From: Sphingosinicella sp. LHD-64
GTDB lineage: Bacteria > Pseudomonadota > Alphaproteobacteria > Sphingomonadales > Sphingomonadaceae
Reading direction: 5' to 3'
Assembly (NCBI RefSeq): GCF_031157375.1
Contig: NZ_JAVIFV010000004.1
Span: forward strand, 558,001 to 622,000
DNA: 64,000 nucleotides
The notes below the pieces were generated by a model. It was not told the DNA's origin. It made no database searches and worked only from the letters and a program-made list of their open reading frames with translations. A program made the translations under genes and the position numbers. Numbering within the stretch: the stretch's first letter is position 1; each line of letters starts with the position of its first letter. Of this stretch, positions 31,105 to 38,794 are shown in pieces.

Positions 31105-32319
31105 TCAGAAATCGACCTGGGCGCGGGCGCCGAACACGTCGACGGTGTAGTCGCGCAGACCGCCGGCCGCCGGGATCGCCGCGTCGTCATAGGCGATCCG
31201 CACATAGTTGACGATGAAGCGGACATAGTCGGTCGGGATCCAGACGAGCGAGGCGGCGTAGGCATTCTGCTCGCCGCCCGAATCCAGATCGAGCCGGTCG
31301 TAGCGCAGGTTGAGCTGGAAGGCGCCGGTGCCGCCTTCCTCGATCGCCCCGCCGGGACGGACCCGGGTGCGGTCCCAGCGGGCGCCGCGATAGCCGCGCG
31401 TCTCGCCGGTCAGAAAGTATCCGATCTCGGCATAGCCGCCAAAGAAGGTGACGTCGTCATCGGGGGCCGCGACGTCGGCCTGCAGCCATTGCGCCTCGGC
31501 GACGGCGTGGAACGGGCCGCTGATGACGGCCGCCTCGAGGCCGTAGCGGGTCTCGTTCTCCACGGCGAGCGGCCGGGTGCCGATGAAGCGGATGTCGGTG
31601 ACGTTGATCAGCGGGCGCTGGCGATAGCGGATGGTGGCGCCGGTCGCGGCAATGTTGTCGATGTCGAGCCAGTGAGCCGAGGCGGCGAGATGGAGTCGGG
31701 TGCCGTTCCATTGCGGCGCATAGATGATCCGCCCGTCGATCGCGTGCGGCTCCACATCGTCGTCGATCTCGAGGAAATTGTCGCCGAAAACACCGAACTG
31801 CGCGGTGAACGGTCCGCGATTGATCTCGGTCGAGACACCGAGTCGCCGCTCGAAGCTGAACGCGTCGGTGAAGGCCGCCCGCTCCAGGAAGCCGCCGAAC
31901 CGCTCGCTGGTGAGCTCGTCCAGTGCCTGGAAATTGTTGTGCTGGCCGACAGTGAGACCGAGACTGCGCGACGGCTTCCAGGTGACCGTCGCTTCGGTGA
32001 TCTCGGCGATGCCGTCCGCGAACTCGGCCTCGAACAGGTAGGAGATGCCGCCCGGCCCGGTGCCCTCGACGCCCAGCTGGGCGCGGCGCAGCCCGGCGAC
32101 AGTGCCGGTCCCCTCCGCGGTGACGCCCTCGGGCCGCGAGACATAGCCGGCGTCGAGCTGGATGCGGCCGCGCGGCTTCACCGACCAGCCCTCGCTCGAC
32201 CCGATTCGCGGGATGCCGGAGAAGCGGCGGTTCTGCTGGCCGGAATCCTGCGCAAGCACCGCCTGACCCGAAAAGGCCAATGCCGTCAGCAGCAGCGCGC
32301 GACAGAAACGGGCCATCAT
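31105..32319 (-). CDS. Phosphate-selective porin O/P-like outer-membrane protein
   Basis: A 404-aa protein with a signal peptide (ending QAVLAQ) and an OprO/OprP-type beta-barrel pattern. WSVKPRGRIQLDAGYVSRPE is the typical first strand pair of this porin family, LGLTVGQHNNFQALDELTSE the following conserved block, and the C-terminus VDVFGARAQVDF ends in Phe as outer-membrane barrels do. Its place between phoR and pstS points to phosphate or pyrophosphate uptake across the outer membrane. The start is the ATG at 32319. Confidence 0.88.
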   Translation of the reverse strand: MMARFCRALLLTALAFSGQAVLAQDSGQQNRRFSGIPRIGSSEGWSVKPRGRIQLDAGYVSRPEGVTAEGTGTVAGLRRAQLGVEGTGPGGISYLFEAEFADGIAEITEATVTWKPSRSLGLTVGQHNNFQALDELTSERFGGFLERAAFTDAFSFERRLGVSTEINRGPFTAQFGVFGDNFLEIDDDVEPHAIDGRIIYAPQWNGTRLHLAASAHWLDIDNIAATGATIRYRQRPLINVTDIRFIGTRPLAVENETRYGLEAAVISGPFHAVAEAQWLQADVAAPDDDVTFFGGYAEIGYFLTGETRGYRGARWDRTRVRPGGAIEEGGTGAFQLNLRYDRLDLDSGGEQNAYAASLVWIPTDYVRFIVNYVRIAYDDAAIPAAGGLRDYTVDVFGARAQVDF

Positions 32320-32357: not shown

Positions 32358-32386
32358 GTGACGCCTATGCTTCTTTCTTATGACAT
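32358..32386 (-). promoter_or_regulatory. Candidate degenerate Pho box upstream of the porin gene
   Basis: On the minus strand ATGTCAT and GCGTCAC are spaced 22 bp apart (two 11-bp turns), with a poor middle half-site AAGAAGC in register. The last half-site ends 38 bp before the porin start. Weaker than the pstS box, but the register and locus support it. Confidence 0.5.
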
Positions 32387-33624
32387 TATTGTTGCACACC
32401 ATGCCCGGCCAGCGCGCGCGGCAGGTAGACGCGGATCGTGGTGCCCTGACCCAGCACCGAATCGATGTCGAGCCGGCCGCGGTGGCGCAGGACGATATGC
32501 TTGACGATGGCGAGGCCAAGCCCGGTGCCGCCGGCGGCACGGCTGCGGCCGGTGTCCACCCGATAGAATCGTTCGGTCAGGCGCGGCAGGTGCTCGGCCG
32601 GGATGCCCTCGCCCTCGTCGATGACGGAGAGGCGGATCATCTCGCCGCCGGCGCCTTCCAGGCGGACGCGGACGGGCGCGCCGGCGCGGCCATATTTGAG
32701 CGCGTTGGCGATAAGATTGTTGAGCAGCTGGGCGAGCTGCGGCCGATCGCCCTGGACGACGGTGTCGGGCGTTTCCTTCTCGACCACGACGCTGGCCTGC
32801 TTCGCCTCGATCAGCTGCCCAAGCGCCGCCTTCACCTCGCCGATCACCGGCATCAGGTCGACGGGCTCGCGCGGGACGGTGAAGCGCTCGGCCTCGATCC
32901 GGCTCAGCGACATCAGGTCGTCGACAAGATTGCGCATCCGCGTCCCCTCGTCGAACATGATCCTGAGGAAGCGCTCGCGGGTCTTGCGGTCGCCGCCCGC
33001 ATCCTCGTCCTGCAGCGTCTCGATGAAGCCGAGCACCGTGGCGAGCGGGGTCCTGAGCTCGTGGCTGGCATTGGCGACGAAATCGACGCGCATCTGCTCG
33101 GCGGCCCGGGCGGCGCTGAGATCGGAAAGGCGGACCAGCCGGCTCTGGTCGGGGAGCACCGTCACCGCCATCGCCCAGTGGCGGCCCGGATCGCCGATGC
33201 CGACCAGCTCGGTGCGCCGGTTCTGATCGTCGGCGCCGGCGGGGCCCGCGAGTCGCTCGGCCGCCGCCGGGTGGCGGATGGCGAGACGGACGTCGACGCC
33301 CTCGATATGGGCGCCGAGCAGCTGCCGCGCCGCGGCGTTGGCGGCGAGCACGCGGCGGTCGCGCACGACCAGCAACGGCTCGTCCACCGCGCGCAGCAGC
33401 TCGGCGATGCCGGGGAGCGGTGCCGGCTCGTCCTCCTCGTCTTCGGGCTCGGGCGGGGCCGGGGCCGGGCGCTCGACCTGTACCGCGAGCGCGTAGGCGG
33501 CGACGCCGCCAAGCGCCGCGAGCAGGGCGGCGAAAGGCGATGCGCCGGCCCAGGCGGCGAGCGCGATCCCCGCGCCCGCCGTCGCGGCCGCGGCGATGAT
33601 CCGGATCGCCTGCCTGCTCGCCAT
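32386..33624 (-). CDS. phoR: Phosphate regulon sensor histidine kinase PhoR
   Basis: A 412-aa membrane kinase. Two close TM helices (about residues 6-47), an acidic linker and a PAS domain (LLRAVDEPLLVVRDRRVLAA) are followed by the HisKA box VANASHELRTPLATVLGF (His at about 188). The ATPase has NNLIANALKYG, DEGEGIPAEHLPRL and GGTGLGLAIVKHIV. It has no large periplasmic sensor, as expected if phosphate status is read through PstB/PhoU. The ATG at 33624 is preceded by GGAAGGGG; an upstream extension is rejected. It lies at the upstream end of the Pho locus, with phoB at the far end. Confidence 0.95.
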   Translation of the reverse strand: MASRQAIRIIAAAATAGAGIALAAWAGASPFAALLAALGGVAAYALAVQVERPAPAPPEPEDEEDEPAPLPGIAELLRAVDEPLLVVRDRRVLAANAAARQLLGAHIEGVDVRLAIRHPAAAERLAGPAGADDQNRRTELVGIGDPGRHWAMAVTVLPDQSRLVRLSDLSAARAAEQMRVDFVANASHELRTPLATVLGFIETLQDEDAGGDRKTRERFLRIMFDEGTRMRNLVDDLMSLSRIEAERFTVPREPVDLMPVIGEVKAALGQLIEAKQASVVVEKETPDTVVQGDRPQLAQLLNNLIANALKYGRAGAPVRVRLEGAGGEMIRLSVIDEGEGIPAEHLPRLTERFYRVDTGRSRAAGGTGLGLAIVKHIVLRHRGRLDIDSVLGQGTTIRVYLPRALAGHGVQQ

Positions 33625-33721
33625 CCGACCCCTTCCGTCCCGAAGCGGGACAGGCGCCCCCGTCCGCTCGATTCGGCCCGGCTTTACCCTTATTAAAGCG
33701 GCGGCGTGTATCGGAATTTCC

Positions 33722-34165
33722 ATGAGCGAGAGCGATCAGAAGGCGCGCGATAGCGGGCAGCCCCCGGTCAGCAGCGAGGACGACCCGGCGGACGGCGGCT
33801 TCGTGCCGAGCCGCCGTGCCGTGCTCATGCTCGGCGCGGCCGCGGCGTCGACCGTGGTGACGATCCGTCCGGCGCTGGCCCAGACCGCGGGCTCGGTGCT
33901 CAACTGCGAAATCCAGGTGCCTGGGCCGCAGGCGGCCGGGAGCTATGTCGCCCCGGACGGCCGCCTGGTCGCGGCCGGCACGCCCGGCGCCGCACCGCCG
34001 CTGGCGCGCCCGCTGACCGGCGAGCAGGCACGCGTGCTGCTGCGCGGCTCGACGCCGCCGGGGGTCAATCCGCAATCCGCTCAGGCCTATGCGAACTATA
34101 TTCGGCGCCTGCAGGCGGGGATGAGCGGCTTCACCTGCTACGCCTCGCTGCAGATGCCGCGCTGA
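33722..34165 (+). CDS. Small predicted Tat-exported protein preceding the HPr-rel-A genes
   Basis: A 147-aa protein. A hydrophilic N-terminus is followed by SRRAVLMLGAAAASTVVTIR (about residues 34-53), a twin-Arg plus hydrophobic segment like a Tat signal, with probable cleavage after PALAQ. The mature part is about 90 residues, has two Cys (LNCEIQ and FTCYASL), a Pro/Gly-rich middle and a C-terminal helix (NPQSAQAYANYIRRLQ). I know no family. It ends 14 bp before the PqqD-like gene, in the same direction, so it is probably in the same operon and may be the substrate or effector of that system (inference). It diverges from phoR. Confidence 0.75.
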   Translation: MSESDQKARDSGQPPVSSEDDPADGGFVPSRRAVLMLGAAAASTVVTIRPALAQTAGSVLNCEIQVPGPQAAGSYVAPDGRLVAAGTPGAAPPLARPLTGEQARVLLRGSTPPGVNPQSAQAYANYIRRLQAGMSGFTCYASLQMPR

Positions 34166-34179
34166 CCGGAGGGGCCGCG

Positions 34180-34446
34180 ATGGCCGCGCCGCGCTATGTC
34201 GCCGATCCGGTGGAGGATATCCGCACGGTCGCGCTCGATGGCCTTTGCGTCCTCTATCATGCGCGGTCCGGCGCCACCCACATCGTCGCGCCCCCCGTGC
34301 CGGAGATTCTGGAGGCCTTGCGGGAAGGCCCGGCCGGTGCCGCCGAGCTGTTGCGGCGCCTCGAGCGCCAGTTCGAGATCGAGGGCGACGGGATCGCGGC
34401 CCGGCTCGAGGAGCTGGAGGCGGCCGGTCTGGTCCGGCGCGCATGA
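34180..34446 (+). CDS. PqqD family protein of the HPr-rel-A system
   Basis: An 88-aa protein with the PqqD/RRE winged-helix fold pattern: VALDGLCVLYHARSGATHIV forms the beta-strand region, and LREGPAGAAELLRRLERQFE plus LEELEAAGLVRRA form the helices. PqqD-like domains bind leader peptides of ribosomally made peptides and hand them to modifying enzymes. NCBIfam defines a subgroup of this size next to an HprK-related kinase as the HPr-rel-A system, of unknown function. The stop overlaps the kinase start by 4 bp. Confidence 0.85.
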   Translation: MAAPRYVADPVEDIRTVALDGLCVLYHARSGATHIVAPPVPEILEALREGPAGAAELLRRLERQFEIEGDGIAARLEELEAAGLVRRA

Positions 34447-35306
34447 GGCACCGCCTCGCCTTCCAGGTCGGCCCGGTGGCCTTCCGCATCGGCTCGGCGT
34501 GGCGGGCGCCGATCGATGCGCTCGGCGCGCTCTATGCCGGCTATCCGGAGCCGGAGGACGGCATCTGTGACTTCACGGTGCGGCTGGAGCCGGAGCAGCC
34601 GTGGCGGCGCTGGCTGCGGCCGTCGGTCGCGATCCGCGGCGATTACATGCTGCCCGACGCCATGCCGATGGCGCTCGCCCACGGCCTGCTCGCTGCCGAG
34701 ATGGGCATGAACCTGCAGATGGCGCTGGGCCAGAAGCGCTATCTGCTGCTCCACGCCGCGAGCGTCGAGAAAGGCGGCCGGTCGCTCATCCTCACCGGCG
34801 AATCCGGCGCGGGCAAATCCACCCTCGCGGCGCTGCTCGGCGAACGCGGCTGGCGGCTGATGGGGGACGAGTTCGCCTTGCTCGACCTGGCGAGCGGCGC
34901 GCTTCATCCGTTCCCACGCGCGGTCAGCCTCAAGAACGGCGCGATCGCCGTCGTGGAGCGCGAGGTGATCCCGACCCGCTTCGGTCCGCGCCTCGACGGC
35001 ACGCCCAAGGGCGCGATCCGCCACATGCGGCCCGCCGCGGACGCGCTGCAGCGCATGGGGGAGGGCGCGCCGCCCGCCTTGATCCTGTTCCCGCGCTTCG
35101 GCGTCGCCGAAGAGGTGCGGCCGGTGGGGCAGGCGGAGATCTTCATGCGCCTGACCCAGGCCTCGACCAACTATGTCGCGCTCGGCGCGGCGGGCTTCGA
35201 CGCGCTGACGCGGCTGGTCTCGGAAACGCCTGCAGCCGCCATCGACTATCCCGATACCGACGCCGCCGTCGCGCTGGTCGAGGACCTGTGGAGACAGGCG
35301 GCATGA
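34443..35306 (+). CDS. HprK-related kinase A
   Basis: A 287-aa P-loop kinase related to the C-terminal half of HPr kinase/phosphorylase. Walker A is LTGESGAGKST (about residues 117-127) and a DE pair follows in LMGDEFALLD (140-148), where HPr kinase has its catalytic acidic residues. The N-terminal 100 residues are particular to this subgroup. True HprK motifs for HPr recognition are not evident, so the substrate is probably something else in the operon. ATGA coupling to the PqqD-like gene and to the next gene shows one functional unit. Confidence 0.88.
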   Translation: MRHRLAFQVGPVAFRIGSAWRAPIDALGALYAGYPEPEDGICDFTVRLEPEQPWRRWLRPSVAIRGDYMLPDAMPMALAHGLLAAEMGMNLQMALGQKRYLLLHAASVEKGGRSLILTGESGAGKSTLAALLGERGWRLMGDEFALLDLASGALHPFPRAVSLKNGAIAVVEREVIPTRFGPRLDGTPKGAIRHMRPAADALQRMGEGAPPALILFPRFGVAEEVRPVGQAEIFMRLTQASTNYVALGAAGFDALTRLVSETPAAAIDYPDTDAAVALVEDLWRQAA

Positions 35307-36310
35307 GGGACGCCCGACTCCTCGTCCAGGCGCTGCGCGATCCCGACAGCCTGCACGACCCCGACTGGTCGGCGCTGGTCGCCACGGCGCGGGCCGAGCA
35401 GCTGATCGGCAGCCTCGCCGCCCGGCTGGCGGGCAAGGCGGTGCCGCCGCGGGTGGAGGCGATCCTCGAGTCCGCCCGTCGCGACTCCGCTTATGCGCGG
35501 ACCCAGGCGCTCTGGGAGGCGGAAATGTGCCGCCGCGCGCTGGCGCCGCTCGGCATGCCGGCGATCCTGCTCAAGGGTACTGCCTTTCATGCCGCAGACC
35601 TCGATGCCGCCGAGGGCCGTTCGGTCGGCGATCTCGACATCCTGGTCCCGCGCGACCGGATCGAGGAGGCGGAGGCCGCCCTGATCGCGGCCGGCTGGGA
35701 GCGGATGAAGGCCGCCGAGGGCTATGACGATCAATATTACCGGCGCTGGATGCACGAGCTGCCCCCGCTCATCCACCATACCCGGGACCGGATGATCGAC
35801 GTCCACCACACCATCCTGCCGCTCACCGCCCGGCCACGGCCGGACGCCACGGCACTGATCGCGGACAGCGTCGTGCTGGAGAGCGGCCTCAGGATGCTGT
35901 CGCCGGCCGACATGATCGTCCATGCTGCCGCCCATCTCCTGGCGGACGGCGATCTGGCCGGAGGGTTGCGCAACCTCTGGGACATCGACCGCCTGCTGCG
36001 CGAATTTGCCGCACGGGATGACGATTTCTGGCGCAAGCTCGCCGAACGGTCGCGGCTGCATCAACTGCGCGGACCGGTGGCGCTGGCGCTGCGCCTGGCC
36101 CGCCGTCTCTACGGCACGCCGGTCGACCGCGTCGTCGCCGGTCGCACGCGCCTCGGTGACCGCCTGTTTGAAGCCCGTCTGCTCGCGCGCAACGGCTGGG
36201 GCCAGGAACGCCACAAGGCGCTTCGCTTCGCCTTCTACATTCGCTCGCACTGGCTGCGCATGCCGCCGCTGATGCTCGCGCGGCATTTGTGGGTGAAGGC
36301 GCGCGCCTAG
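35303..36310 (+). CDS. Nucleotidyltransferase family protein of the HPr-rel-A system
   Basis: A 335-aa protein of the 'uncharacterised nucleotidyltransferase' family. ILLKGTAFHAADLDA (about residues 88-102) and SVGDLDILVPRDRIEEAE (107-124) give the GD-x-D acidic motif of the polymerase-beta-like fold; ADMIVHAAAHLL is a later conserved helix. Relatives accompany HprK-like kinases in HPr-rel-A loci and in lasso-peptide clusters. Whether it transfers nucleotides is not shown. The start ATGA overlaps the kinase stop; the end overlaps the convergent VOC gene by 4 bp. Confidence 0.85.
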   Translation: MRDARLLVQALRDPDSLHDPDWSALVATARAEQLIGSLAARLAGKAVPPRVEAILESARRDSAYARTQALWEAEMCRRALAPLGMPAILLKGTAFHAADLDAAEGRSVGDLDILVPRDRIEEAEAALIAAGWERMKAAEGYDDQYYRRWMHELPPLIHHTRDRMIDVHHTILPLTARPRPDATALIADSVVLESGLRMLSPADMIVHAAAHLLADGDLAGGLRNLWDIDRLLREFAARDDDFWRKLAERSRLHQLRGPVALALRLARRLYGTPVDRVVAGRTRLGDRLFEARLLARNGWGQERHKALRFAFYIRSHWLRMPPLMLARHLWVKARA

Positions 36311-36696
36311 GCCTCGCTCTCACTGCCGTAGGGGCGGGTAATGACCTCCAGAAGGTGCCCGTCCGGGTCGGGGAAATAGACGCCACGGCCGCCGAAATGG
36401 TGGTTGATCTCTCCCGGCTGAGTCCGTGCGGGATCGGCCCAGTGATCGAGGCTGCGCGCGCGAATCCGCCCGTAGACCGCGTCGAAATCCTCCTCGCCGA
36501 TCAGGAACGCATAGTGCTGGAGGGCGATGTCGCCGCTCTTCTCCATGAAATCGAGCGAGACATTGTTGTCGAGGTCGACGACGAGGAAGTTGAAGAAGGC
36601 GTGCGGCGCCGGGCGGCCGAGCATCTCGGCAAGGAAGGTCGCGGACGCATGCTTGTCATGGCACCAGACGATCGTGTGGTTGAGCTCGGCGCTCAT
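36307..36696 (-). CDS. VOC (glyoxalase-fold) family protein
   Basis: A 129-aa single VOC unit. ELNHTIVWCHDKHASATFLA gives the first His ligand, HYAFLIGEEDFDAVYGRI the internal one, and RGVYFPDPDGHLLEVITRPY the terminal Glu. The WCHDK pattern is typical of a glyoxalase-like subgroup without assigned substrate. The start ATG at 36696 overlaps the gph stop by 4 bp, so the two form a small operon. Confidence 0.85.
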   Translation of the reverse strand: MSAELNHTIVWCHDKHASATFLAEMLGRPAPHAFFNFLVVDLDNNVSLDFMEKSGDIALQHYAFLIGEEDFDAVYGRIRARSLDHWADPARTQPGEINHHFGGRGVYFPDPDGHLLEVITRPYGSESEA

Positions 36697-37370
36697 GGCG
36701 CGTCTCCTTTCAGCCTCTCCAGGGTCGGAATCAGCTCCGCATGGGAATGGATCAAGGCGTCCGCGCCGAGCTGTTCCGCCGGCCGGTCGGAAAAGCCGAA
36801 GCTGACCGCGACGAACGGTATCCCGGCCGCCTTCGCCGTATCGGCATCCGTGATCGAATCGCCGACGAAGACCGCCCGGCCGCCGCCGGCGCGGGCGATC
36901 GCTTCGTGGAGCGGGGCGGGATCGGGCTTGCGCACCGGCAGGGTGTCGCCGCCGACGATCGCGTCGAAGCGCCCGGTCCAGCCGATCGCGTCGATCAGCA
37001 GGTGAGTCAGCCCTTCCTGCTTGTTCGTGCACAGCGCCAGCTTCACGCCGCGCGCCTTCAACGCGTCGAGGGCGTCGTCGAGGCCCGGATAGGCGGAGGA
37101 GCCGTCGCAGATATGCGCGGCATAATGTTCGAGGAAGAACGGGAAGCCCTGCTCGACCAGTGCCTCCGACGCGTCGCCGCTGGTCGCCAGCCCCTTGCGC
37201 AGCAAGGTCCTCGCGCCGTGGCCGACCAGATGACGGACCGAATCGACCGGCACCGTCGGCCGTCCCAGCCGCGCCAAGGCATGGTTCAGCGCGGCGGCAA
37301 GGTCGGGCGCGGTGTCGGCGAGCGTGCCGTCGAGATCGAACGCGACCATGTCGAAGGGAAAGTCGGCCAT
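36693..37370 (-). CDS. gph: Phosphoglycolate phosphatase
   Basis: A 225-aa HAD hydrolase that dephosphorylates 2-phosphoglycolate, formed for instance during DNA repair. The nucleophile motif is VAFDLDGTLADTAPDLAAAL, motif II LALCTNKQ, motif III lies in GGDTLPVRKPDPAPLHEAI and motif IV in AVFVGDSITDADTAKAAG. The cap domain and length fit Gph rather than other HADs. It diverges from glmU with about 65 bp between starts and overlaps the VOC gene downstream. Confidence 0.92.
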   Translation of the reverse strand: MADFPFDMVAFDLDGTLADTAPDLAAALNHALARLGRPTVPVDSVRHLVGHGARTLLRKGLATSGDASEALVEQGFPFFLEHYAAHICDGSSAYPGLDDALDALKARGVKLALCTNKQEGLTHLLIDAIGWTGRFDAIVGGDTLPVRKPDPAPLHEAIARAGGGRAVFVGDSITDADTAKAAGIPFVAVSFGFSDRPAEQLGADALIHSHAELIPTLERLKGDAP

Positions 37371-37435
37371 GGCGGCGCTTTCCGTCGCGGCTCTGGAAAT
37401 GGCAAGGTTTCCGTGCCATCTGGCCGCCAAGGGCC

Positions 37436-38794
37436 ATGACCAGACAACGTGATTTCGCCGCCGTGATCCTCGCCGCCGGCAAGGGCACACGGATGAAATC
37501 GGATGTGCACAAGGTGCTGCATCCGATCGCCGGCCGCGCCATGCTCGATCACCTGCTCGGCGTGCTCGACACGCTTTCGCCGGCGCGCAAGGTCGTCGTC
37601 GTCGGCGCCGGCCGCGAGCAGGTCGCGGGGCTGGTCGAGGCACGCGGCGGGGACATCGTGGTGCAGGAGCAGCAGCTCGGCACCGCCCATGCCGTCCGCA
37701 TGGCCGAGCCGGCGCTGGGCGGGTTCGCCGGCGATGTCCTCATCCTCTACGGCGATACGCCGCTGATCGAGGCGGAGACGATGGCGCACATGCTCGATCG
37801 GCTGCACGCGCCGGATGCGCCGGCGCTGGTCGTCGTCGGCTTCCGGCCCGCCGATCCCATGCAATATGGTCGCATCCTCGCCGCGCCCGACGGCACCATC
37901 GAGAAGATGGTCGAATACAAGGATGCGACGCCTGAGGAACGTGCCGTAAACCTTTGCAATTCTGGCATGATGGCGGCGCGGGCGGAGGATCTGTTCCCGC
38001 TCCTCGCCCGGGTCGGCAACGACAATGCGGCGGGGGAATACTACCTCCCCGACGTGGTGATGCTGGCCGCCGGGGACGGCCGCAAGTCGGCGGTGATCGA
38101 GGCCGAGCCCTGGGAGATGGCCGGCGTCAACAGCCGCGCCGAGCTGGCCCTGGTCGAGGCCGAGTGGCAGCGACGGCGGCGGCTGAGGGCGATGGCCGAC
38201 GGCGTGACGCTGGTCGCGCCGGACACGGTCTGGTTCGCCCATGACACCCAGATCGGCCGCGACACGGTGATCGAGCCGAACGTCGTCTTCGGTCCCGGCG
38301 TGAAGCTCGGCGAGGGCGTGCGGATTCGTGCCTTCAGCCATGTCGAAGGCGCCATCGTCGCCGCAGGCGCGGAGATCGGCCCCTATGCGCGCCTGCGTCC
38401 CGGGGCGGAGATCGGCGAGCGGGCCAGGGTCGGCAATTTCGTCGAGGTGAAGAAGGCGAAGCTCGGGCCCGGCGCCAAGGCCAACCACCTGACCTATCTC
38501 GGCGATGCCGAGATCGGCGCCAATGCGAACATCGGCGCCGGCACGATCACCTGCAATTATGACGGCTTCTTCAAATACCGGACGGTGATCGGGGAGGGGG
38601 CGTTCATCGGCTCCAATTCCGCGCTGGTGGCGCCGGTGACCATCGGTGCCGGCGCGCTCGTCGCAGCCGGATCGGTCGTCACGAAGGACGTCGCCGCCGA
38701 TGCGATCGCGATCGCGCGGGGCGAGCAGGTCGAGAAGCCCGGTCGCGCCAGGCGCTTCCGCGACTTCATGACGGAGCGAAAGAAGAAGTCTTGA
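37436..38794 (+). CDS. glmU: Bifunctional GlmU (GlcN-1-P acetyltransferase / GlcNAc-1-P uridyltransferase)
   Basis: A 452-aa enzyme making UDP-GlcNAc for peptidoglycan and LPS. The N-terminal pyrophosphorylase domain starts AVILAAGKGTRMKSDVHKVL (its LxxGxGTxMxSxxxK signature), with MLYGDTP-like ILYGDTPLIEAETM following. The C-terminal left-handed beta helix has hexapeptide repeats and acetyltransferase residues in HLTYLGDAEIGANANIGAG and NYDGFFKYRTVIGEGAFIGS. The short tail matches alphaproteobacterial GlmU. glmS follows after a REP-like element, so the amino-sugar steps are neighbours. Confidence 0.97.
   Translation: MTRQRDFAAVILAAGKGTRMKSDVHKVLHPIAGRAMLDHLLGVLDTLSPARKVVVVGAGREQVAGLVEARGGDIVVQEQQLGTAHAVRMAEPALGGFAGDVLILYGDTPLIEAETMAHMLDRLHAPDAPALVVVGFRPADPMQYGRILAAPDGTIEKMVEYKDATPEERAVNLCNSGMMAARAEDLFPLLARVGNDNAAGEYYLPDVVMLAAGDGRKSAVIEAEPWEMAGVNSRAELALVEAEWQRRRRLRAMADGVTLVAPDTVWFAHDTQIGRDTVIEPNVVFGPGVKLGEGVRIRAFSHVEGAIVAAGAEIGPYARLRPGAEIGERARVGNFVEVKKAKLGPGAKANHLTYLGDAEIGANANIGAGTITCNYDGFFKYRTVIGEGAFIGSNSALVAPVTIGAGALVAAGSVVTKDVAADAIAIARGEQVEKPGRARRFRDFMTERKKKS

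Follow-up and report, generated by a model that had tools for sequence, protein, structure and literature searches.

A candidate exported substrate for the RRE, HprK-type kinase and nucleotidyltransferase-like proteins of an HPr-rel-A cassette in Sphingosinicella

HprK-like kinases have been described as tailoring enzymes of small peptides. In paeninodin-type systems PadeK phosphorylates its precursor on the C-terminal serine, and hexoses are added to phosphoserine by PsmN, which is annotated as a nucleotidyltransferase, as set out in the available part of a review (PMC9266682). The clusters for linear polyphosphorylated peptides (LPP) of Bacillota lie in capsule loci and combine an RRE (recognition element of ribosomally synthesized and post-translationally modified peptides, RiPPs), an HprK-like kinase, a nucleoside triphosphate (NTP) transferase, an SpI-like peptidase and an MsbA-like exporter; according to the available text of PMC13381572, LppK of this non-lasso system phosphorylates Ser3. 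Here we describe an HPr-rel-A cassette in a 64,000-nucleotide stretch of the Sphingosinicella sp. LHD-64 genome (contig NZ_JAVIFV010000004.1, positions 558,001 to 622,000; hereafter the window, whose numbering we use throughout). In this cassette a small exported protein is encoded ahead of a PqqD-like protein of the RRE type, an HprK-related kinase and a nucleotidyltransferase-like protein.

The cassette belongs to HPr-rel-A by its adjacent HprK_rel_A (TIGR04352) and PqqD_rel_X (TIGR04353) genes, both of which pass the curated cut-offs, and the name of the latter model (HPr-rel-A system PqqD family peptide chaperone) already casts the PqqD part as a peptide chaperone. The gene order, the families, an RRE-like structural model, the co-occurrence of the genes, the specificity of the signal, the invariance of two motifs and the joint presence or absence of the genes at one site were computed directly. 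Together they suggest that the system probably modifies the exported protein, a precursor of the twin-arginine translocation (Tat) type, before export and probably on a C-terminal serine. The first-pass annotation had likened the locus to phosphorylating RiPP systems, an apt likeness given the non-lasso system of RRE, HprK-like kinase and NTP transferase reported from Bacillota in the available part of PMC13381572.

The cassette and its products

The four genes form a compact plus-strand group at 33722-36310, exactly as first annotated. The exported protein, our candidate substrate, is encoded at 33722-34165 (147 amino acids; twin arginine at positions 31 and 32, cysteines at 62 and 139). Only 14 bases separate its gene from that of the PqqD-like protein (34180-34446; 88 amino acids), whose ATG at 34180 follows a likely ribosome-binding site, GGAGGGG, at 34168-34174 on the same strand. 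The kinase gene (34443-35306; 287 amino acids) and the nucleotidyltransferase-like gene (35303-36310; 335 amino acids) complete the group, each joined to the gene before it by an ATGA overlap, at 34443 and 35303, respectively.

The families of the last three products were assigned with scores over the curated cut-offs. The PqqD-like protein, first annotated as PqqD/RRE-like, matched PqqD_rel_X at 65.6 bits (cut-off 35), and its structural model (pLDDT [predicted local distance difference test] 89.7) has the element order EEE-HHH-E. The top Foldseek rows for this model were TbiB1 with its leader peptide (template modelling score 0.59, probability 1.00, E 1.1e-3), followed by ThcOx, a lasso B1 protein with leader and a sactipeptide enzyme, and then by the winged-helix protein NO66; solved relatives of the family by sequence were weak only (PqqD family protein 9x8z, E 0.47). 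The model thus points to an RRE-type fold resembling leader-bound RRE proteins, in agreement with the first annotation. The kinase matched HprK_rel_A at 240.8 bits (cut-off 200), and residues H104, G122, G124, K125, S126, T127, D142, E143, K164 and K189 are invariant in 17 diverse members. It aligns over 41 residues with the HPr kinase/phosphorylase (HprK/P) structure 1jb1, matching it in the histidine, the P-loop and the first acidic residue. The fourth product matched NTP_transf_5 (PF14907) at 174.9 bits (cut-off 31.2), and a gene of this family lies directly 3' of hprK in most loci inspected.

The exported protein matched nothing in Pfam or NCBIfam at E ≤ 1 and, judged by its sequence, appears to represent a new family. 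Its structural model (mean pLDDT 66.5; predicted template modelling score 0.48) is confident for residues 70 to 130 and of low confidence in the C-terminal tail. Foldseek returned nothing for it at E ≤ 0.001 (best E 3.4), and no solved relative was found (best E 0.18). What it does carry is a twin arginine followed by a hydrophobic stretch and an AxA motif, together making up the signal considered below.

Joint distribution of the exported protein and the kinase

We examined 149 genomes of the family to which Sphingosinicella belongs, counting HprK_rel_A over its curated cut-off and searching for the exported protein with a profile (A2; E ≤ 1e-3). The kinase was present in 45 of the 149 genomes, and the exported protein was found in 47, namely all 45 kinase genomes and two extras that are weak and not credible (G027, E 5.6e-4, with an internal stop; G118, E 6.7e-4, in a 673-codon open frame). 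The link between the Tat-type protein and the cassette, which a conservation check set beforehand in the first-pass annotation put at risk, therefore held in 45 of 45 genomes. Four genera (g1, g36, g51 and g68) each include some genomes that have both genes and others that have neither, G118 being counted there as a weak match.

The expectation that a homologue always comes first was borne out in 42 of the 45 genomes, where its gene lies just upstream, and failed in three, where it is unlinked and nonetheless kept (G040, G042 and G122). In G040 the exported protein and PqqD_rel_X sit beside phoR, with hprK and the nucleotidyltransferase-like gene on another contig. Nor does the gene always directly precede pqqD, as a glycosyltransferase gene intervenes in 15 of 80 named loci. 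This gene, GT4-like and found mostly in Sphingobium (e.g., L197:4334-5494), may act on the same product.

A wider set of 219 HprK_rel_A loci, which includes repeat fetches of some genomes, gave a similar picture: in 164 of them the exported-protein profile matched an open reading frame (ORF) at most 2 kb upstream of hprK (E ≤ 1e-3), and a wider profile did so in 197 (E ≤ 1e-2). For the named loci a match lay inside the locus in 78 of 80, and genome searches recovered the other two: in Sphingomonas sp. AX6 the gene lies about 4 kb upstream, and for L148 it sits on a different contig. The intervening stretch of about 4 kb in AX6 (L185:2046-6000), between the exported-protein gene and pqqD, holds ORFs that by eye resemble an extracytoplasmic function sigma factor and its partner. 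The nearest HprK_rel_A loci among the named genomes are those of Sphingosinicella and relatives. One record titled Bacillus sp. 2B10 (L216, RPSH01000014.1) shares 89% identity with Sphingomonas hankookensis (L201) along 12.9 kb and is probably mislabelled or contaminated.

To this co-occurrence can be added a set of empty sites. We inspected the phoR neighbourhood in 14 cassette-free genomes, and in six of them (G129, G053, G110, G028, G003 and G137) phoR adjoins gph and glmU with none of the four genes between, the gap between BLAST matches being 30 to 361 bases; in the other eight phoR lies in a different neighbourhood. The empty sites imply that all four genes were gained or lost together at the phoR-gph site. 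We also observed that phoR keeps its place beside the gene for the exported protein in the genomes whose kinase genes have moved off (G040, G042 and G122).

The association extends to the signal taken by itself. The conserved twin-arginine signal, R31-Q54 (RR..LMLGA..AS.VVTIRPALAQ), is encoded at 33812-33883 on the plus strand and is the proposed leader for the PqqD-like protein. In 52 of 53 sphingomonad proteins the two arginines precede an LxLGA-type motif (our own pattern), the 53rd reading RRALMLGS. A profile of the 27-residue sphingomonad signal only (A6; first row, window 33806-33886; E ≤ 0.01) matched 46 of the 149 genomes, that is, 44 of the 45 HprK_rel_A genomes and two weakly (G057, 0.0016; G016, 0.0035). 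Such confinement to kinase genomes would not be expected of a generic Tat signal.

Beyond the family, we used a phylum sample of 299 genomes. HprK_rel_A exceeds the cut-off in 51 of these, and 43 of the 51 belong to other families. A protein with a twin-arginine (RR) signal often precedes pqqD in these other-lineage loci, and a profile of such proteins (A3) matched 37 of the 43 kinase genomes (the listed match in G239 has a stop counted inside it) and a single kinase-free genome, weakly (G364, 6.8e-4). Most of the proteins from the 37 genomes end in an [ST]C[WYFL]xS[LIF] tail. The gene is upstream on the same strand in 32 of the 37, adjacent on the opposite strand in one (G281) and on another contig in four (G271, G228, G216 and G170). 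PqqD_rel_X adjoins the protein, away from the kinase, over the cut-off in G271 and G216, and in G281 it stands beside the protein at 33.4 bits, slightly under the cut-off. Six of the 43 had no A3 match: in G332 the locus meets a contig end, and in G434, G167, G408, G410 and G163 an RR-signal protein with another body precedes pqqD. In two further genomes, G248 and G272, the A3 match lies mainly in the signal and the bodies differ. By hhalign, the sphingomonad and other-lineage families can be aligned only in the signal, over 45 columns (probability 95.7, E 8.9e-9), and ten other-lineage RR-signal proteins had no Pfam or NCBIfam match over cut-off. In L082, L084, L093, L096 and L100 the gene before pqqD encodes an RR-signal protein of a second group, with a different body (GYWKN or TPGFFKNH, and AAYLN-like stretches); these proteins, too, reached the cut-off of no family in Pfam or NCBIfam.

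Candidate phosphosites, proposed mechanism and alternatives

Two serines of the exported protein stand out. The first lies in the C-terminal motif T138-C139-Y140-A141-S142-L143 (34133-34150, plus strand), in which T138, C139 and S142 are invariant in 53 of 53 aligned sphingomonad proteins, Cys139/Ser142 being 4 to 6 residues from the end. The second is Ser58, which with Cys62 (33893-33907, plus strand) lies just past the predicted AxA cleavage site; both residues are likewise invariant in all 53. Across all lineages C[WYFLI]xS occurs in 137 of 140 distinct proteins (absent from L097, L099 and L116) in 25 variants that each fit [ST]C[WYFL]xS[LIF], a count that is partly circular for other lineages because the C-terminal motif had served to select 30 of the rows that seeded the wider profile. 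A less circular check found the motif in four of four proteins (L245 and L247, sphingomonad copies away from the kinase; L278 and L279, reached via A3), within the limits that the sphingomonad profile covers the tail region and the A3 rows carry the motif. Both copies that were read among the four on other contigs (G271 and G228) have it, and a serine and then a cysteine follow AxA in 131 of 138 motif-bearing proteins. We favour Ser142 as the most likely site, ahead of Ser58; both are plausible because PadeK modifies a C-terminal serine and LppK a serine near the leader.

The mechanism that we propose begins with the first gene, whose product would be a precursor with a twin-arginine signal that doubles as leader. 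The PqqD-like RRE protein would bind this signal in the cytoplasm and recruit HprK_rel_A, which would phosphorylate the precursor with ATP, likeliest on Ser142 of TCYASL and alternatively on Ser58; the NTP_transf_5 enzyme may then extend the phosphoserine with a nucleotidyl or sugar group. Tat would export the protein, an ordinary signal peptidase would cut after ALA, and Cys62 and Cys139 could pair outside. No special protease or exporter would be needed because the leader would itself be the export signal. We infer all binding, catalysis, sites, the export route and the order of the steps in this scheme, and phosphorylation of the exported protein is suggested by the relatives of the enzymes together with the conservation.

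Several observations weigh against this reading. The co-occurrence shows that the genes work together but does not make the exported protein a kinase substrate, and part of it is explained by shared operon inheritance. In G042 and G122 the exported protein lies beside phoR and pqqD goes with the kinase and nucleotidyltransferase-like genes elsewhere. One HprK_rel_A genome, G049, lacks an A6 signal match. The seven other-lineage genomes named above (five without an A3 match, and G248 and G272) keep the RR signal on a different body without the C-terminal motif, so Ser142 cannot be the universal site. The suggested Tat route is read from the twin arginine alone, as no generic Tat model in Pfam or NCBIfam matched the exported protein at E ≤ 1. 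Finally, the Foldseek search with the PqqD-like model returned no row at E ≤ 0.001.

The alternative that survives best, though we consider it unlikely, is that the exported protein serves as partner or effector: the kinase and nucleotidyltransferase-like protein would modify another target (a sugar, lipid or polysaccharide precursor), and the exported protein would act on the resulting product outside the cell. The neighbours in the scanned other-lineage loci are XrtA/PEP-CTERM-type genes (TIGR03087, TIGR03088 and TIGR03108), placing those cassettes in polysaccharide loci as this explanation would have it, and it also fits that 15 of 80 named sphingomonad loci carry a glycosyltransferase gene within the cassette. 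It leaves unexplained, however, both the PqqD/RRE-type protein and the conservation of the signal only across otherwise unlike proteins, and in G040, G271 and G216 pqqD stays beside the exported protein while the kinase is elsewhere.

In some of these loci (L088:7619-9511, L089:8198-10105 and L098:7923-9839) the TIGR03108 amidotransferase that follows the cassette scores 238 to 281 bits against the lasso cyclase model NF033535, the cut-off of which is 525. An exosortase (TIGR02602) is encoded in 14 of the 43 other-lineage HprK_rel_A genomes, many of them drafts, and in all 13 genomes of the window's family in the phylum sample; the Sphingosinicella sp. LHD-64 genome carries one (C1:96594). No claim of exosortase dependence is possible, as five of those 13 genomes lack HprK_rel_A.

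Less probable again is a role of the PqqD-like protein in Tat proofreading, as a chaperone of the exported protein, with the kinase and nucleotidyltransferase-like protein regulating the export or stability of the complex and no permanent decoration of the cargo. Tat proofreading chaperones of such a kind are known, and the binding would be to a signal that is unusually conserved: across the 53 sphingomonad proteins the mean share of the top residue is 0.77 for the signal (residues 30-54) and 0.20 for residues 1-29. The same measure gives 0.67 for residues 68-99, 0.73 for 100-131 and 0.87 for the tail (132-147), so that the most conserved region is one that a signal chaperone would not explain. 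Moreover, in the known systems with related enzymes it is the precursor itself that is modified, as described in the available parts of PMC9266682 and PMC13381572.

We give very little credence to the idea that HprK_rel_A acts as a regulatory HPr kinase in a phosphotransferase-type pathway with incidental neighbours: the kinase is related by sequence to HprK/P structures (1jb1 and 2qmh, E 0.002), but the genome has another short HprK-like ORF elsewhere (C1:449225, 29.4 bits), and the presence or absence of the exported protein follows that of the kinase so tightly that we reject HPr regulation. Just as improbable is mere shared inheritance of one neutral operon, which would be expected to give joint gain and loss of genes adjacent in 42 of 45 family genomes but leaves unexplained that both genes are kept though unlinked in three family genomes and four other-lineage drafts, and that signal and tail are held while the sequence between them drifts.

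Modification of the Tat-type precursor before export thus remains the reading that we prefer. A broader proposal, which we advance tentatively and would not yet back over its denial, is that the cassette stands for a proteobacterial class of modified exported proteins that are protein-sized and RRE-guided. In such a class one N-terminal sequence would be both RiPP-type leader and Tat signal, cytoplasmic phosphorylation (with nucleotidyl or sugar addition) would be tied to Tat export with no protease or exporter of its own, and a decorated [ST]CxxS tail may link the protein to exopolysaccharide.

Genomic setting and comparison with known systems

The cassette is flanked by phoR, pstS and pstC on one side and by a VOC-like ORF, gph, glmU and glmS on the other. 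The divergent PhoR-like histidine kinase gene (32386-33723, minus strand) scored 297.6 bits against TIGR02966, below the cut-off of 334.2, and its true start probably lies downstream of 33723. This neighbour prompted a look for a PhoB-like box, and none was seen by eye in the printed sequence, no scan being run. The scans of the flanks assigned no family to an ORF at 31105-32319. On the other side, the VOC-like ORF (36310-36783, minus strand) resembles Fos families weakly (27.3 bits at best, against a cut-off of 180) and is not called a resistance gene, and gph (36693-37643, minus strand) encodes a phosphoglycolate phosphatase (TIGR01449, 198.7 bits, cut-off 180).

Among described systems, HPr kinase/phosphorylase shares with the cassette's kinase a P-loop core and the conserved histidine and acidic residue; it differs in that the alignment covers only about 40 residues and the kinase scores 20.2 bits against TIGR00679, which has a cut-off of 240. 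Paeninodin-type tailoring (PadeK, ThcoK, PsmK/PsmN) is closer, with an HprK-like kinase, a nucleotidyltransferase-like partner and an RRE, and its kinase acts on the C-terminal serine of the precursor, by the available part of PMC9266682; here the candidate serine lies 4 to 6 residues from the end. In contrast to that system, the candidate substrate here is a Tat-type protein, and neither a lasso cyclase (asparagine-synthase-like) nor a B2 protease or leader peptidase was found in the cassette and scanned flanks. A lasso cluster is thereby rejected, in keeping with the non-lasso use first proposed.

The LPP clusters, as the available text of PMC13381572 presents them, resemble the cassette in joining an RRE, an HprK-like kinase and an NTP transferase without a lasso cyclase, in their polysaccharide-locus setting (shared with the other-lineage HPr-rel-A loci) and in a precursor whose N terminus is conserved and whose body varies; their serine phosphorylation is the likeness on which our proposal draws, with a candidate serine only. 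They differ in their YxxP-type leader and in having both a dedicated signal-peptidase-like protease and an MsbA-like exporter. In the present cassette the leader would be a twin-arginine signal, the candidate substrate is a small protein, and neither an SpI-like peptidase nor an MsbA-like transporter occurs among the cassette genes or scanned flanks, so that the cassette falls outside LPP. The available text of that paper contains no mention of Proteobacteria, Pseudomonadota or twin-arginine.

We regard the cassette as a variant of the RRE, HprK-type kinase and nucleotidyltransferase kind that is neither a lasso nor an LPP member. HPr-rel-A itself, which no paper in the literature searched names, has curated models and a function left undescribed in that literature; it now has a specific candidate target, outside any Pfam or NCBIfam family, with a leader-like signal and two invariant serines. 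If the proposal is true, HprK-type peptide phosphorylation would reach beyond the lasso and LPP peptides of Bacillota, to an exported protein that is widespread in Proteobacteria, and the cassette would provide a case of a Tat signal serving as a modification leader.

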